Origin: Mycobacterium sp. 3519A
GTDB taxonomy: Bacteria > Actinomycetota > Actinomycetes > Mycobacteriales > Mycobacteriaceae
DNA: 64,000 nt
NCBI RefSeq assembly: GCF_900240945.1
Contig: NZ_OESG01000012.1
Location: forward strand, 1,054,001-1,118,000
Reading direction: 5' to 3'
Shown here: one piece after another, positions 42,560 to 48,703 of the stretch
Layout: every line of letters starts with the position of its first letter
Numbering within the stretch: the stretch's first letter is position 1
Position numbers and translations under genes: made by a program
Notes under the pieces: generated by a model
The model's database searches: none
What the model saw: only the letters and a program-made list of their open reading frames with translations
Told to the model about the DNA's origin: nothing

Positions 42560-44598
42560 TCCTCGGGCACCTCGCGCTCGATCTCGTCCAGCCAGACTCG
42601 GGCCGACATGTCCGACGGCGCCCGCCAGTCACCGCGAGGCGACAACGATCCGCCGTGCGAGACCTTCGGCCCGTTCGGCAGCGCCGAGCGCTTGAATTGG
42701 GAGAACGAGTAGAAGCGCTGTGCGAACACCTGCAGCCAGTGCCGAATCTCCTTCAGCGAGTAGGCCGGTCGCTTCTGGTCGGGGAAACCGACGGGCCAGT
42801 CGCCGCGTTCGGCGTCGCTCCACGCATGCCACGCCAGGAACGCGACCTTCGACGGGCGGAACCCGAACCGCAGCACCTGGAACAGTGAAAAGTCCTGCAG
42901 CACATACGGGCCGACCTTGGATTCGCTGCTCTGGATCTCCTCGTCCTCGCCTGCCGGGACCAATTCCGGGCTGATCTCAGTGTCGAGGACCGACTCCAGC
43001 ACGTCGTTGACGGTGTCGTCGAACTGCTTCGACGAGATCACCCAGCGGATCAAGTGCTGGATCAGTGTCTTGGGCACGCCGCCGTTGACGTTGTAATGCG
43101 ACATCTGGTCGCCCACACCGTAAGTGGACCAGCCAAGGGCGAGTTCCGATAGGTCGCCGGTGCCGAGCACGATGCCGCCACGCTGGTTGGCGAGCCGGAA
43201 CAGGTAGTCGGTGCGCAGACCCGCCTGCACGTTCTCGAACGTGACGTCGTAGACCTTCTCACCGCGCGCGAACGGATGATCCATCTCCTTGAGCATCAGT
43301 TCCGCGGTGGCCTTGATGTCGATGGTCTCGAACGTCACACCGAGCGCCTCGGCGAGTCGCGTCGCGTTGCTCTTGGTGCGTTCCCCCGTGGCGAAGCCCG
43401 GCAGCGTGAACGCGAGAATGTCGCTGCGCGGCCTGCCTTCCCGGTCCATCGCACGGGCGGCGACGATTAACGCGTGGGTGGAGTCCAACCCACCGGACAA
43501 TCCGAGCACCACCTTCGGATAATCCAGCGCCCGCAGCCGTTGCTCGAGACCGGCGACCTGGATGTTGTAGGCCTCGTAGCAATCCTGTTCCAGGCGTTGC
43601 GGATCCGCGGGCACGAACGGGAACCGCTCGATCTCGCGGCGCAATCCGATGTCGCCGCTGGGCGGGTCGAGCTGAAATTCGATGCGGCGGAACGATTCCG
43701 CGGTGATGCCGTGGTGCAGGCGGTTGTCGTCGAAGGTGCCCATCCGAAGCCGCTCCGCGCGCAGCAACTCCAGATCGACATCGGCGACCGAACGCTGGTC
43801 GCCCAGCGCGAACCGCTCCGACTGGACCAGGCACACGCCGTTTTCCCACACCATCGTCTGACCATCCCACGCCAGGTCGGTGGTCGATTCGCCCTCGCCC
43901 GCCGCGGCGTAGACGTAGGCGGCCAGGCACCGCGACGACGCCGACCGCGCCAACAGGCAGCGGTCTTCGGCGCGGCCGATGGTGATGGGGCTGCCGGACA
44001 GGTTGGCCAACACCGTCGCACCCGCCAGTGCCGCCTGCGCGCTGGGCGGGATCGGCACGAACATGTCCTCGCAGATCTCGACGTGCAGCACGAAGCCGGG
44101 TAGGTCTGTTGCGGTGAACAACAGGTCGGGCCCGAACGGCACGTCGGCCTCCCCGATCCTGATCGCGCCGCGCATCGCGTCGCCTGCCGCCATCTGGCGT
44201 CGCTCGTAGAACTCCCGGTACGTCGGCAGGTACGACTTCGGCACCACGCCGAGGATCCGGCCGCGGTGGATCACCACGGCGGTGTTGTAGATCCGGTGCT
44301 GATATCGCAGCGGCGCACCGATCACCAGCACCGGCATCAGTTCGGCCGATGCGACGACGACGTCGAGCAGCGCGTCCTCGACCGCGTCCAGCAGCGCGTC
44401 CTGCAGCAGGATGTCCTCGATCGAGTAGCCGGACAGCGTCAGCTCGGGAAACACCGCCAGCGCGACGCTGTCGTCATGGCAGGCCCTGGCCACCCGCACG
44501 ACCGACTCGGCGTTGGCCGCGGGATCGGCGATGCTCGTGTGGTGGGTGCACGCCGCCACTCGCACGAACCCGTGGCGATAAGCCGAATAGAAATCCAT
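42556..44598 (-). CDS. nadE: Glutamine-dependent NAD+ synthetase
   Basis: 680 aa, the long two-domain form. N-terminal glutaminase (nitrilase fold) with catalytic Glu52 (FPELTLSGYS), Lys121 (PKSYLPTY) and Cys176 (EICEDMF), identical in number to M. tuberculosis NadE. C-terminal ATP-pyrophosphatase domain with SGGLDSTHALI. It amidates deamido-NAD+, the last step of NAD synthesis. Positional counterpart of Rv2438c. Confidence 0.97.
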   Translation of the reverse strand: MDFYSAYRHGFVRVAACTHHTSIADPAANAESVVRVARACHDDSVALAVFPELTLSGYSIEDILLQDALLDAVEDALLDVVVASAELMPVLVIGAPLRYQHRIYNTAVVIHRGRILGVVPKSYLPTYREFYERRQMAAGDAMRGAIRIGEADVPFGPDLLFTATDLPGFVLHVEICEDMFVPIPPSAQAALAGATVLANLSGSPITIGRAEDRCLLARSASSRCLAAYVYAAAGEGESTTDLAWDGQTMVWENGVCLVQSERFALGDQRSVADVDLELLRAERLRMGTFDDNRLHHGITAESFRRIEFQLDPPSGDIGLRREIERFPFVPADPQRLEQDCYEAYNIQVAGLEQRLRALDYPKVVLGLSGGLDSTHALIVAARAMDREGRPRSDILAFTLPGFATGERTKSNATRLAEALGVTFETIDIKATAELMLKEMDHPFARGEKVYDVTFENVQAGLRTDYLFRLANQRGGIVLGTGDLSELALGWSTYGVGDQMSHYNVNGGVPKTLIQHLIRWVISSKQFDDTVNDVLESVLDTEISPELVPAGEDEEIQSSESKVGPYVLQDFSLFQVLRFGFRPSKVAFLAWHAWSDAERGDWPVGFPDQKRPAYSLKEIRHWLQVFAQRFYSFSQFKRSALPNGPKVSHGGSLSPRGDWRAPSDMSARVWLDEIEREVPED

Positions 44599-44641
44599 GC
44601 CTCAATGTTGCCCGAAAACGGATCGGGGTATGCAAAAGCCC

Positions 44642-45181
44642 ATGAGTGACGTCGCTGTGCTGGTCATAGACATGTTGAACACGTATGCGCACGAGGACGC
44701 CGAGGTGCTGGCAGACAATGTGGCCAAGATCGTCGATCCGCTGGCCGGGCTCATTTCGCAGGCCCGAGACCGCGACGACGTGGATGTGATCTACGTCAAC
44801 GACAACTTCGGCGACTTCACCGCCGATTTCGACGACATCGCCGAGGCGGCGTGCACCGGAGAGCGCCCCGAGTTGGTGACACCGATCGCGCCCGACGAGG
44901 CCAGCAAGCGCCTGCTCAAGGTGCGGCACAGCGCGTTCTACGCCAGCTCACTGGACTATCTGCTCGGCCGGCTGGAGGCCAAGCGGCTGATCCTGACCGG
45001 CCAGGTCACCGAACAGTGCATTCTCTACACCGCGCTCGACGCCTACGTGCGCCATTTCGAGGTCATCGTGGCGCCCGACGCCGTCGCGCACATCGATCCC
45101 GAACTCAGCGATGCCGCGCTGACGATGATGAACAAGAACATGCACGCCGAGATCGTGCCCGCTGGGAAGTGCCTGAAGTAG
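44642..45181 (+). CDS. Cysteine hydrolase, isochorismatase-like family
   Basis: 179 aa from ATG 44642; ATG 44630 (with GGGG upstream) is an alternative adding four residues. Catalytic triad is visible: Asp10 (VLVIDMLNTY), Lys93 (LLKVRHSAF) and Cys126 (QVTEQCILYT). Members include nicotinamidases, isochorismatases and N-carbamoyl hydrolases. It is divergent from nadE, so a nicotinamidase-type role is tempting, but the nicotinamidase metal motif (DxH) is not evident. Substrate open. Confidence 0.85.
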   Translation: MSDVAVLVIDMLNTYAHEDAEVLADNVAKIVDPLAGLISQARDRDDVDVIYVNDNFGDFTADFDDIAEAACTGERPELVTPIAPDEASKRLLKVRHSAFYASSLDYLLGRLEAKRLILTGQVTEQCILYTALDAYVRHFEVIVAPDAVAHIDPELSDAALTMMNKNMHAEIVPAGKCLK

Positions 45182-45215: not shown

Positions 45216-47636
45216 GTGGTCACACGCGACCGGATCGCCGAACCCTGGGGCGGCCGAACGCCGTACGGACGAGGCGAACGGTGGCCGACCCGCGTCGACA
45301 CCTACCTGACCGACGACGCCGTCGACCATTGGGCGCAGTCGGCCTCCGTATTGCATTCCAACGGTGACGGCATGGACATCGCGGTGAAAGACGGCCGCAT
45401 CGTCGGTGTACGCGGACGCGCCGACGACCGGGTCAACCACGGCAGGCTCGATCCGAAGGATCTCTACGGCTGGCAGGCCAACGCCGCACCCGACCGCCTC
45501 ACCGCCCCGATGGTCCGGCGCCACGGCGAACTCGTCGAAACCGATTGGGACACCGCGATGGACGAGATCGTCGAGCGCAGCAAGGCGTTGCTCGACGGGT
45601 TCGGACCCGGGTCGTTCGGCTTCTACACCTCCGGTCAGTTGTTCCTCGAGGAGTACTACACGTTGGGCGTCATCGCTCACGGCGCGATCGGCACCAACCA
45701 CGTCGACGGCAACACCCGCCTGTGCACCGCCACCGCCGCGGAGGCGCTGAAGGAGTCATTCGGCTGCGACGGGCAACCGGGCTCCTACACCGACATCGAC
45801 CACGCCGACGTGATCGCGCTGTACGGCCACAACGTCGCCGAAACCCAGACCGTGCTGTGGATGCGGATGCTGGACCGGTTGGCGGGGGAGAATCCGCCTG
45901 CCCTGGTGTGCGTCGACCCGCGGCAAACGCCGGTCGCCTGGCACGCCACCGTCCACCTGGCGCCGCTGCCGGGAACCAATGTGGCGTTGATGAACTCGCT
46001 GCTGCACGAGATCGTCCGCAACGACTGGGTCGACGACGAATATGTCGCCGCGCACGCCGTCGGTTTCGACGAACTACGCAAGCGGGTCGACGAATTTCCA
46101 CCCCAGCGGGCCGAGGATATCTGCGGCGTGCCTGCGGGTGATATCCGCGAGGCCGCGCGACTCATCGGCACGGCGACCGCGTTGACGTCGACTGTGCTGC
46201 AGGGCTTCTACCAATCGAACCAGGCCACCGCGGCGGCGGTGCAGGTCAACAACATTCACATCCTGCGCGGCATGCTTGGCCGGCCAGGATGTGGGGTGCT
46301 GCAGATGAACGGTCAGCCCACCGCCGAGAACACGCGAGAATGCGGCGCAGACGGGGACCTCGCTGGTTTTCGCAACTGGTCCAACGACAGCCACATCGCC
46401 GAACTCGCCGAACTGTGGAACATCGAGCCCATGCAGATACCGCACTACGCGCCGCCGACCCATGCGATGCAGATGTTCCGTTACGCCGAGCAGGGCACGC
46501 TGCGACTGCTGTGGGTCAGTGCCACCAACCCGGCGGTGTCGCTGCCCGAATTGGCCCGCGTGCGAAGCATTCTCGCGCAGGAGCGATTGTTCCTGGTGGT
46601 GCAGGACATCTTCCTGACGGAGACCGCCGAACTCGCCGACGTGGTGCTGCCCGCCGCGGCGTGGGGCGAGAAGACCGGCACGTTCACCAACGCCGACCGC
46701 ACAGTTCACTTGTCGGAGAAGGCGGTCGACCCGCCAGGGCAGGCCAGGCCCGATCTGGACATCTTCCTCGATTTCGCGCATCGGATGGATTTCCGGGACA
46801 AGGACGGGGCTCCCCTGCCGAATTGGAAGGATGCCGAGTCGGCGTTCGAGGCGTGGAAGCGATGCAGCGCGGGACGGCCGTGTGACTACACCGGGCTCAG
46901 CTACGCCAAGCTGCGGGGTTCGGGTGGAATCCAGTGGCCCTGCAACGACGAGAATCCTGACGGGACCGAACGGTTGTACGCCGACGGCACGTTCCTGGCG
47001 CAACCCGACTACTGCGAGGCCTACGGCAAGGACCTGATCACCGGCGCGCCACTGGAACCCACCGAGTACCGGGCGATGAACCCCGACGGCAAGGCCATCA
47101 TCAAAGCCGCCGAGTACCTGCCACCGCACGAACTTCCGAGGAGCGACCGCCCGTTCGTGTTGATCACCGGGCGCACGGTGTACCAGTTCCACACACGCAC
47201 CAAGACCGGGCGCGCGCCGCAACTGCGCGACGCCGCGCCGGAAGTGTGGGTCGAGGTGTCGGAGTCTGACGCATCCCGGTTGCAGATCCACGAAGGCGAT
47301 GTGACCGAGGTGTGCACCGCACGCGGCACGGTGTCAGCCAAGGCGCGAATCAGCGGGATACGCGAAGGCGTGCTATTTCTGCCATTCCACTACGGCTACT
47401 GGGACAGCCGCGACGGTATGAACCGTGACCGGGCGGCCAACGAGCTGACCATCACCGACTGGGACCCCTGCTCGAAGCAACCGATCTTCAAAACCGCTGC
47501 TGCACAACTACGCCGGGTCGCCGACGGGGCCGGCCCCGCACCCGCGCCGACGACCGCGGCGGCCAAACCGGTGACCGGCGACGTGCCGGACACCGTCGGC
47601 GGTCCGGACGCCGAAGTGACCGAGTCGGAGGGTTGA
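45216..47636 (+). CDS. Molybdopterin oxidoreductase lacking the N-terminal [4Fe-4S] ligands
   Basis: 806 aa from GTG 45216. Overall fold of the DMSO-reductase family (formate dehydrogenase/nitrate reductase type): GFYTSGQLFLEEYYTLG, TNHVDGNTRLCTATAAEAL with Cys170 in the Mo-ligand position, CVDPRQTP, GCGVLQMNGQP, FLTETAELADVVLPAA and a C-terminal MopB domain (VEVSESDASRLQIHEGDVTE). The N-terminal Cx2Cx3C...C that normally binds FS0 reads Ser44, His47, Asp51 and Asp79 (SVLHSNGDGMD, GRLDPKDLYGW), so no cluster can form there. Cytoplasmic (no Tat signal). The electron route and substrate are unknown; a helical partner gene follows after 1 nt. Confidence 0.9.
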   Translation: MVTRDRIAEPWGGRTPYGRGERWPTRVDTYLTDDAVDHWAQSASVLHSNGDGMDIAVKDGRIVGVRGRADDRVNHGRLDPKDLYGWQANAAPDRLTAPMVRRHGELVETDWDTAMDEIVERSKALLDGFGPGSFGFYTSGQLFLEEYYTLGVIAHGAIGTNHVDGNTRLCTATAAEALKESFGCDGQPGSYTDIDHADVIALYGHNVAETQTVLWMRMLDRLAGENPPALVCVDPRQTPVAWHATVHLAPLPGTNVALMNSLLHEIVRNDWVDDEYVAAHAVGFDELRKRVDEFPPQRAEDICGVPAGDIREAARLIGTATALTSTVLQGFYQSNQATAAAVQVNNIHILRGMLGRPGCGVLQMNGQPTAENTRECGADGDLAGFRNWSNDSHIAELAELWNIEPMQIPHYAPPTHAMQMFRYAEQGTLRLLWVSATNPAVSLPELARVRSILAQERLFLVVQDIFLTETAELADVVLPAAAWGEKTGTFTNADRTVHLSEKAVDPPGQARPDLDIFLDFAHRMDFRDKDGAPLPNWKDAESAFEAWKRCSAGRPCDYTGLSYAKLRGSGGIQWPCNDENPDGTERLYADGTFLAQPDYCEAYGKDLITGAPLEPTEYRAMNPDGKAIIKAAEYLPPHELPRSDRPFVLITGRTVYQFHTRTKTGRAPQLRDAAPEVWVEVSESDASRLQIHEGDVTEVCTARGTVSAKARISGIREGVLFLPFHYGYWDSRDGMNRDRAANELTITDWDPCSKQPIFKTAAAQLRRVADGAGPAPAPTTAAAKPVTGDVPDTVGGPDAEVTESEG

Positions 47637-47637
47637 C

Positions 47638-48117
47638 ATGAAACTCGCGCTCGCGCTGCGGGAGTTGCACCGGTCGGAGGCAGGCCTGGCCCGGTCGTTG
47701 GACGCGATCGCCGCACGGCACCACAACGACCACGGAATCCATCACGTGGCCCGCGACCTGGCCGTGTGGTCCCGCGAGCACGTCGAGTTGATATCCGACA
47801 TCGGCAGACGGTACGGAGTGCGGTTACGTGCGAACCCGCGGACGACGACCCTCGCGGAGCCGGTCCAGGAGTGGATCAGCGATCGCCTCGGCCGCAGGCC
47901 GGAACCGGCCCTGCTGTTGCTGGCCGACCTGCGCAGGCTGCACCGGCTTGCCGCGGGCGTATCTGTGGACTGGGAGCTGTTGGCGCAGGGCGCGCAGGCG
48001 GCCAAGGACGACGAACTGCTGGCGCTCACGCAGCGCTGTCATCCGCAGGCGCTGCGCCAGATGCGTTGGGCGAACGCGATGCTGAAGGAGTTGTCGCCGC
48101 AGGCCCTCGCGAACTGA
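47638..48117 (+). CDS. Helical protein of unknown function, coupled to the molybdoenzyme
   Basis: 159 aa; ATG is 1 nt after the oxidoreductase stop. Almost all-helical by composition. His-rich segment AARHHNDHGIHHVARDL near residues 26-42, then HVELISDIGRRYG and a C-terminal QALRQMRWANAMLKEL. The pattern recalls a ferritin-like or four-helix bundle and could bind metal, but no family motif is recognised. Tight coupling suggests a dedicated partner or maturation factor (inference). Confidence 0.65.
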   Translation: MKLALALRELHRSEAGLARSLDAIAARHHNDHGIHHVARDLAVWSREHVELISDIGRRYGVRLRANPRTTTLAEPVQEWISDRLGRRPEPALLLLADLRRLHRLAAGVSVDWELLAQGAQAAKDDELLALTQRCHPQALRQMRWANAMLKELSPQALAN

Positions 48118-48217
48118 CGACGTCGGCTGCTGTTGGTCTGTGGTTCGCCTGCGCGCACCGCGCATTTTGATCGGATCGCGCATCGTGAGACCACACCACC
48201 CAACTCCGGAGGTCATC

Positions 48218-48703
48218 ATGAACAAGCCTGCTGCTCAACGTCGTTCACGTTCCTTGCTGCCTGAACTGTCCGGTCTGCTCAGCACCCTTCCTTCGTTCGC
48301 CGATCTGCGTCCGCTGTTGGACGGCCGTGTGTTGCGGATCGAGGACGAGCACAAGGACGGCCGCTATGAGGTGCGCGCCGAACTTCCCGGCGTCGACCCG
48401 GTCGAGGACATCGAGATCACGGTCCACGACGGCCGGCTGACCATCAGGGCCGAGCGCAGACCGGCCGGTGAATCCGCCGGTCGCTCCTTCACCCGGACGG
48501 TCGCGCTACCTGCGGGCGCCTCAGAAGACGAGATCACCGCCAGCTACGACCGGGGCATCCTGACCGTGTCCGTCTCGCTCACCCAGGACAGCCCAGCCCA
48601 GAAGCCGGTCGAGGTCATGGAGACGATCTCCGCCGACGACGTGCAGCCGGCGCTGGAGGCCGGCGAACACCAGGAGCACACCGAGCAGCACCAACCCGCC
48701 TGA
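48218..48703 (+). CDS. hspX: Hsp20/alpha-crystallin small heat-shock protein, HspX-like
   Basis: 161 aa from ATG 48218 with ribosome-binding site CGGAGG. The N-terminus SLLPELSGLLSTLPSFADL and the crystallin domain start DGRYEVRAELPGVDPVEDI follow M. tuberculosis HspX/Acr closely; GILTVSVSL is the end of the core. Acr is an ATP-independent chaperone of dormancy controlled by DosR. No DosR-type palindrome is seen in the 100 bp upstream. The acidic, His/Gln-rich tail after residue 140 is longer than in HspX. Confidence 0.88.
   Translation: MNKPAAQRRSRSLLPELSGLLSTLPSFADLRPLLDGRVLRIEDEHKDGRYEVRAELPGVDPVEDIEITVHDGRLTIRAERRPAGESAGRSFTRTVALPAGASEDEITASYDRGILTVSVSLTQDSPAQKPVEVMETISADDVQPALEAGEHQEHTEQHQPA

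Follow-up and report, generated by a model that had tools for sequence, protein, structure and literature searches.

TorA and BisC are enzymes with a molybdenum bis(pyranopterin guanine dinucleotide) (Mo-bisPGD) cofactor that have no N-terminal [4Fe-4S] cluster, and in DorA and TorA electrons are delivered straight to the pterin/molybdenum cofactor (Moco). In the available text of PMC10100899, DorA is named among several enzymes of the dimethyl sulfoxide (DMSO) reductase family that lack this cluster, FS0; TorA, transhydroxylase and BisC are placed there in one Ser-coordinating group, and the iodate reductase IdrA is described with [3Fe-4S] at FS0 in place of [4Fe-4S]. FS0-less members of the family are already known, but they are Ser-ligated and belong to other branches. 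The present analysis concerns a gene in a 64,000-nucleotide stretch of Mycobacterium sp. 3519A (contig NZ_OESG01000012.1, positions 1,054,001 to 1,118,000; the whole stretch is called "the window" below). By alignment, its product is a NapA/NarB-like molybdoenzyme of the Cys-ligated Mo-bisPGD group, in which the four FS0 cysteine positions are occupied by Ser, His, Asp and Asp. No description of FS0 loss by His/Asp exchange in this Cys-ligated, NapA/NarB-like branch was found in the literature searched.

The local reading of the enzyme is ...QSA-S44-VL-H47-SNG-D51-...-GRL-D79-P-K81-D82. S44, H47, D51 and D79 align onto the four N-terminal cysteines of D. desulfuricans NapA, and this alignment, together with the codons in the window DNA (tcc for S44, cat for H47, gac for D51), confirms the four assignments made in an earlier note on this DNA. 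C170 aligns with the Cys of the NapA segment RLCMASA, and in the same alignment the residue that follows the Mo-Cys, Met in NapA, is Thr171. Because no export signal was seen by eye, the enzyme is probably cytoplasmic. Relatives that share His47 and Asp51 are referred to as the H/D type and those with cysteines as the Cys type. Alignment A2 compares 55 H/D rows with 23 Cys rows (two outgroups omitted), and a class sample of 394 genomes was searched at a match threshold of 1e-180, with two candidates scored per genome. The gene and the positions discussed are these:

45216..47636, forward strand: H/D-type molybdopterin oxidoreductase open reading frame, GTG start, 806 amino acids, lacking the FS0 cysteines
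45345..45347, forward strand: Ser44, first FS0 Cys position; Ser, Ala or Thr across the clade
45354..45356, forward strand: His47, second FS0 Cys position; the lone exception seen is Ser in locus L091
45366..45368, forward strand: Asp51, third FS0 Cys position; invariant in the H/D type sampled
45429..45431, forward strand: Arg72; found in 55/55 H/D rows of A2 and in 46/47 H/D genes of the class sample; the Cys type varies here
45450..45452, forward strand: Asp79, fourth FS0 Cys position; Asp, Gly or Glu, and Gly in the Cys-type sister
45456..45458, forward strand: Lys81, the conserved Lys two residues past the fourth Cys position; kept
45459..45461, forward strand: Asp82; specific to the H/D clade, Gly in the Cys type
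45723..45725, forward strand: Cys170, Mo ligand by alignment
46335..46337, forward strand: Arg374, aligned to NapA Arg354, which we take to have a role in the active site

Pfam places the product in the Mo/W-bisPGD (DMSO reductase/MopB) superfamily (PF00384, 186.6 bits against a cut-off of 24; PF01568, 93.5 against 26.8), and the same scan gave no match to the Fe4S4 domain PF04879. None of the 25 NCBIfam families listed (26 match) reaches its cut-off, the best score being that of formate dehydrogenase alpha (TIGR01591, 455 bits against 666.25). Nitrate reductases of the NapA/NarB/NasA type hold four FS0 cysteines where the window enzyme has none, and the scores lie far below the cut-offs (NasC, 388.6 against 1100; haloarchaeal NasA, 357.8 against 1000; NapA, 281.2 against 930.55); arsenite_ox_L scores 162.7 against 359.05, and bisC_fam/TIGR00509 108.7 against 1017.55. 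In formate dehydrogenase the His that follows the Mo-Cys has a catalytic role; this His is present in FdhF chain 7qv7, whereas the window enzyme has Thr171. Pyrogallol-phloroglucinol transhydroxylase, also of the DMSO reductase family, performs net non-redox chemistry. According to the available text of PMC10100899 it belongs to the Ser-coordinating group, as do the type III DMSO/trimethylamine N-oxide (TMAO) reductases such as DorA, which have no N-terminal [4Fe-4S] cluster; the window enzyme resembles the latter in a lack of cluster that is read from its sequence, but it is Cys-ligated and keeps the FS0 loop with His/Asp. As for the mycobacteria, the available text of PMC7816997 reports that, among the nitrate reductase candidates of M. 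smegmatis, only MSMEG_4206 (NasN) supports nitrate assimilation; NasN is of the same superfamily, but is a protein of 1351 amino acids with extra domains. Relatives encoded in frames of ~1150-1500 codons, which are probably of the NasN kind, show ~34-39% identity to the window enzyme and have cysteines wherever the match reaches the FS0 positions.

The exchange is conserved well beyond the window. In a set of close homologues (the query and the best 120 of 7967 hits, the named ones mostly mycobacterial), H47, D51 and C170 are each present in 121 of 121 sequences, position 44 is Ala in 70 and Ser in 51, and position 79 is Asp in 112, Glu in 5 and Gly in 4. Among the named loci, which are the best 80 of 591 relatives, D51, R72, K81, D82, C170 and R374 are each found in 80/80 and H47 in 79/80, with position 79 divided between Asp (41) and Gly (39). 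The exception at position 47 is Nocardia xishanensis (L091), which has Ser there and lacks alongside it the small downstream gene, ORF159, that is described below. Matches in the class sample came from 62 of the 394 genomes, one match apiece, and comprise 47 H/D-type genes (the window's own counted), 10 Cys-type genes and a third kind with 5. All 47 H/D genes carry H47, D51, K81, D82, C170, T171, Q367 and R374, as well as R168, T173, Q363, N372, E375, R653 and H659; R72 is found in 46, and H725 in 46 with an X in the remaining one, A172 is Ser in 2, and position 79 is Gly in 27, Asp in 19 and Glu in 1. No Cys occurs at 44, 47, 51, 53 or 79 in the 55 H/D rows of A2, and we infer that the FS0 cluster is absent from the type. 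The earlier note had proposed asking whether Ser/His/Asp/Asp is conserved as a clade: H47 and D51 are, S44 and D79 vary, and D82 had been overlooked. The signature of the clade is H47-D51-D82, and S44 and D79 are incidental to it. Retention of the Mo ligand Cys170, also claimed in that note, is borne out by both the 121 close homologues and the 47 class-sample genes, with the Mo-site residues intact. One genome, G268, holds two H/D copies on separate contigs (L113 and L143), which read HHANGDAMD and LHSNGDAYD, respectively.

A sister clade bears cysteines at the same site. The motif C-x-L-C-S-N-G-C is found in L018, L019, L123 and L125 and also in a fragmentary gene in L071, and in the best 120 matches listed from a search with L019, C44, C47 and C51 are each present in 120/120, as are Gly79 and Gly82, and C53 in 113/120. 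PF04879 is found in all 120 of these matches and in 0 of the 120 matches listed for the H/D query. The sister motif (L219-L226, P0241-P0360) is itself unusual: in most cases it reads C-x2-C-x3-C-x-C, the canonical fourth position being Gly, and the cluster it binds may perhaps be 3Fe-4S, or 4Fe-4S using C53. The altered FS0 of arsenite oxidase AioA, which is [3Fe-4S] as well, and that of IdrA are comparable to this three-cysteine sister; both enzymes keep a cluster and a partner subunit of their own. The four cysteines are complete in the more distant relatives L128, L129 and L133 (37-40% identity). Against NapA, then, all four cysteines are replaced, as the earlier note had it; against the enzyme's own branch the replacement is of three canonical ones (usually also C53), the sister having Gly79. 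That note had also looked to homologues in the same context with four cysteines as a challenge to its finding. The sister does share the downstream gene, but it has only three of the four canonical cysteines and forms a clade of its own, so that the finding stands and is made sharper by it. Both types in one genome were found in 0/62 matching genomes, as scored at the class-sample threshold. In Streptomyces sp. DH24, an intact H/D-type gene is preceded in the same locus, at a distance of some kilobases, by a Cys-type fragment (L071:2130-3970) that covers query residues 2-288 and is split between two frames; the arrangement looks as though one type had replaced the other.

The two types differ consistently at few positions. 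Only 47, 51, 82 and 323 (Leu/Val) split them in A2 at a level of at least 90% in each group, and positions 44, 53, 72 and 88 also shift, less cleanly. R168, C170, T171, Q363, Q367, N372 and R374 are identical in 78/78 rows. The pattern is close to a natural exchange of FS0 on an otherwise unchanged enzyme.

Both trees were built without the FS0 columns. In the first, made by a quick method with no bootstrap and with the long outgroup branches and L125 flagged as unsure, the 55 H/D rows fall on one side of a branch with a Shimodaira-Hasegawa-like approximate likelihood ratio (SH-aLRT) value of 96, and the Cys rows and the four-cysteine outgroup fall on the other. In the second, from the class sample, where the window gene is present twice (as Q and L001), the H/D rows and the third kind lie together on one side (54 rows, SH-aLRT 98), with the third kind nested within the H/D type, adjoining L216-L218. 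The three states cost two changes on this tree, the minimum possible, and outgroup rooting gives Cys to H/D, followed by H/D to the third kind. The H/D type is a single actinobacterial clade. Because Gly79 is found in 120/120 of the sister matches, the fourth cysteine was already gone in the parent branch. As ordered by the tree, the first step would have been loss of the fourth cysteine (Gly79), with C53 perhaps standing in; in a second step C44 would have become Ser, Ala or Thr, C47 His and C51 Asp, while Asp82 and Arg72 became fixed at the same time. By the tree, D79 replaced Gly and not Cys directly.

The third kind (L227-L231, five genomes of one genus) has Gly in place of H47, Arg in place of K81 and Leu in place of R374; it also lacks Q367, H659 and H725, C170 is gone in 3/5, and its ORF159 has diverged. 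It is likely a pseudo-enzyme lineage and serves as an internal control for decay. Comparison of the window gene with its relative L031 gave dN 0.0315 and dS 0.2187, a dN/dS of ~0.14. Decay of the H/D type is ruled out by the retention of residues, by this ratio and by the contrast with the decayed third kind. The earlier description of the substitutions as clean is supported: they are clade-wide and selected, the Mo-site residues are kept and dN/dS is low.

Downstream of the enzyme gene, in an operon-like arrangement, is the following:

47638..48117, forward strand: ORF159, 159 amino acids, predicted four-helix bundle, beginning 1 nt past the enzyme stop codon

ORF159 adjoins the enzyme gene in 78/80 named loci, and a small helical-bundle gene lies downstream in 55/57 class-sample loci when both types are taken together; the Cys type also has ORF159, in 9/10 in the class sample. 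Starts of the homologues were picked by a script as the nearest start ahead of the match, and their lengths are therefore rough. The predicted model of ORF159 has a fold of the ferritin-like superfamily. ORF159 has no accepted Pfam family; a Pfam scan of 63 members found IntS14_C in 8 and DUF2383 in 6 (best E 2.6e-4), and none of the 25 families listed, of 27 that match, is a ferritin family. Comparison with mycobacterial bacterioferritin by hhalign gave a probability of 0.2% and no sequence alignment on which diiron ligands could be mapped, and a PDB profile search gave weak matches, the best to 8qae (sc-apCC-6-SLLA, E 0.0042) and the next to MJ0754 (E 0.058). The literature searched for a ferritin-like partner gave no description of this clade. 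An apparent fusion of the enzyme with ORF159 in Saccharomonospora sp. CUA-673 (L107) proved to be a frameshift effect, the start and end of ORF159 being in different frames. Across 54 of the 80 named loci, no wider conserved neighbourhood was found, and genes beyond the pair recur only loosely; no redox partner of known kind was seen conserved beside the gene, and only ORF159 recurs strongly. Alcohol-dehydrogenase-like and SDR-like families, named by eye, each occur in 8/23 genus groups at variable position; the neighbourhood cluster containing the enzyme itself mixed several frames and was set aside.

We give even chances to the reading that the H/D type, an old clade, is a catalytically competent Mo-bisPGD enzyme without FS0, with its cluster pocket repacked, that carries out a redox reaction with electrons passed directly to Moco. 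H47, D51, D82 and R72 would fill and stiffen the empty pocket, and the repacked pocket would allow Moco still to be inserted and held. The active-site residues checked do not differ from those of the cysteine-bearing sister, and the reaction is therefore probably the one that the sister performs, most likely the reduction of an oxyanion or of an N- or S-oxide. If the enzyme is redox-active, direct delivery would be the likeliest route, with a docked partner passing electrons to Moco across the pterin/Lys81 face; ORF159 is the prime candidate for that partner.

Several points weigh against this reading. The absence of FS0 is read from sequence alone. According to the available text of PMC10609526, FS0 in NarG and DmsA is taken to be needed for Moco insertion, and substitution of FS0 cysteines in NarG blocks both FS0 and Moco insertion, a precedent by which cluster loss in the H/D type might cost Moco too. 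NapA has Met where this enzyme has Thr171, so that the substrate may differ as well. Since the Cys type has ORF159 too, ORF159 did not arise to replace FS0. Finally, identity of the active site with that of the sister is no proof of redox chemistry, and a reaction that needs no electrons would explain the easy loss of FS0 equally well.

This last point leads to the main rival, unlikely in our estimate: non-redox or internally balanced Mo chemistry (hydration, transhydroxylation or isomerisation), of the sort known from acetylene hydratase and pyrogallol transhydroxylase, which would make FS0 dispensable. Such chemistry would suit a protein in which FS0 changed while the examined active-site positions did not, and it would fit loci in which ORF159 recurs strongly and a redox partner of known type is not seen beside the gene (54 of the 80 named loci).

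It is slightly less probable that the cluster has been replaced, either structurally or as an electron relay, by one metal ion (Fe, Zn or Mn) held in the His/Asp/Asp pocket. H47 and D51 sit on cluster-ligand positions and D82 is next to Lys81, and their presence in 47/47 genes goes beyond what mere filling of a pocket would need. However, Asp79 is Gly in 27/47, the co-fixed R72 suits a salt-bridge network equally, and one H/D gene (L091) has Ser47. A combined version, which we consider quite doubtful, is that H47, D51 and D82 (with D79 if present) bind one metal that takes over the role of FS0 in Moco insertion and as a relay, and that this metal is fed by ORF159 acting as a dedicated, ferritin-like metalloprotein donor. 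We know of no such scheme of electron delivery, a mononuclear metal with a ferritin-like donor, anywhere in the superfamily.

A pseudo-enzyme, or a Moco- or pterin-binding scaffold with no catalysis, is improbable. That the lineage can decay is clear from the nested five-genome group, which lost H47, K81, R374, H659 and H725, and C170 in 3/5, but the catalytic-site residues kept across the 47 H/D genes and the dN/dS of ~0.14 argue against the same fate for the H/D type. To our knowledge an iron-sulfur cluster without any Cys ligand would be unusual, and continued binding of a cluster through non-Cys residues or through cysteines elsewhere is very improbable. According to the available text of PMC10609526, NarG naturally has a His as ligand of FS0, but the 55 H/D rows offer no Cys at any of the five positions noted above. 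Sequencing error, which the earlier note had named as a possible refutation, or a frame artefact is ruled out, as the residues recur in genomes from many genera that were sequenced independently.

Other genes near the pair were noted. An Hsp20 gene (window 48140-48703) lies between ORF159 and a Sir2-type gene, and likewise in L031; no match to it was found in the other mycobacterial loci that have ORF159 and Sir2, and L047 has a weak match upstream. Ahead of the enzyme gene is an isochorismatase-like hydrolase (window 44597-45181), which is also present in most mycobacterial loci with a nadE neighbour (not in L033), with no match in the loci of other genera. Small Cys-rich proteins of ~135 amino acids occur near the pair in 4 genus groups (for example, L080:17451-17855 and L144:11420-11827). 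Elsewhere in the same genome, G000:C13:208425-210002 (L203) encodes a molybdopterin oxidoreductase that has cysteines in its FS0 motif and contains an in-frame TGA. The open frame ahead of it resembles, by eye, the end of a SelB-like factor, and the enzyme is perhaps a selenocysteine formate dehydrogenase.

Genes of this group are annotated as nitrate reductase or as selenocysteine-containing dehydrogenase, and such a function cannot be assumed for the H/D type. The finding also draws attention to ORF159 as a conserved, uncharacterised partner protein. FS0 is usually regarded as required for electron transfer, and the H/D clade would be a natural exception worth examining. The H/D and Cys branches are related, have the same active-site residues and differ at little besides the cluster site; they form a matched natural pair in culturable actinobacteria, one that makes testable both how Moco enters a NapA-like fold that lacks FS0 and by what route electrons reach Moco.
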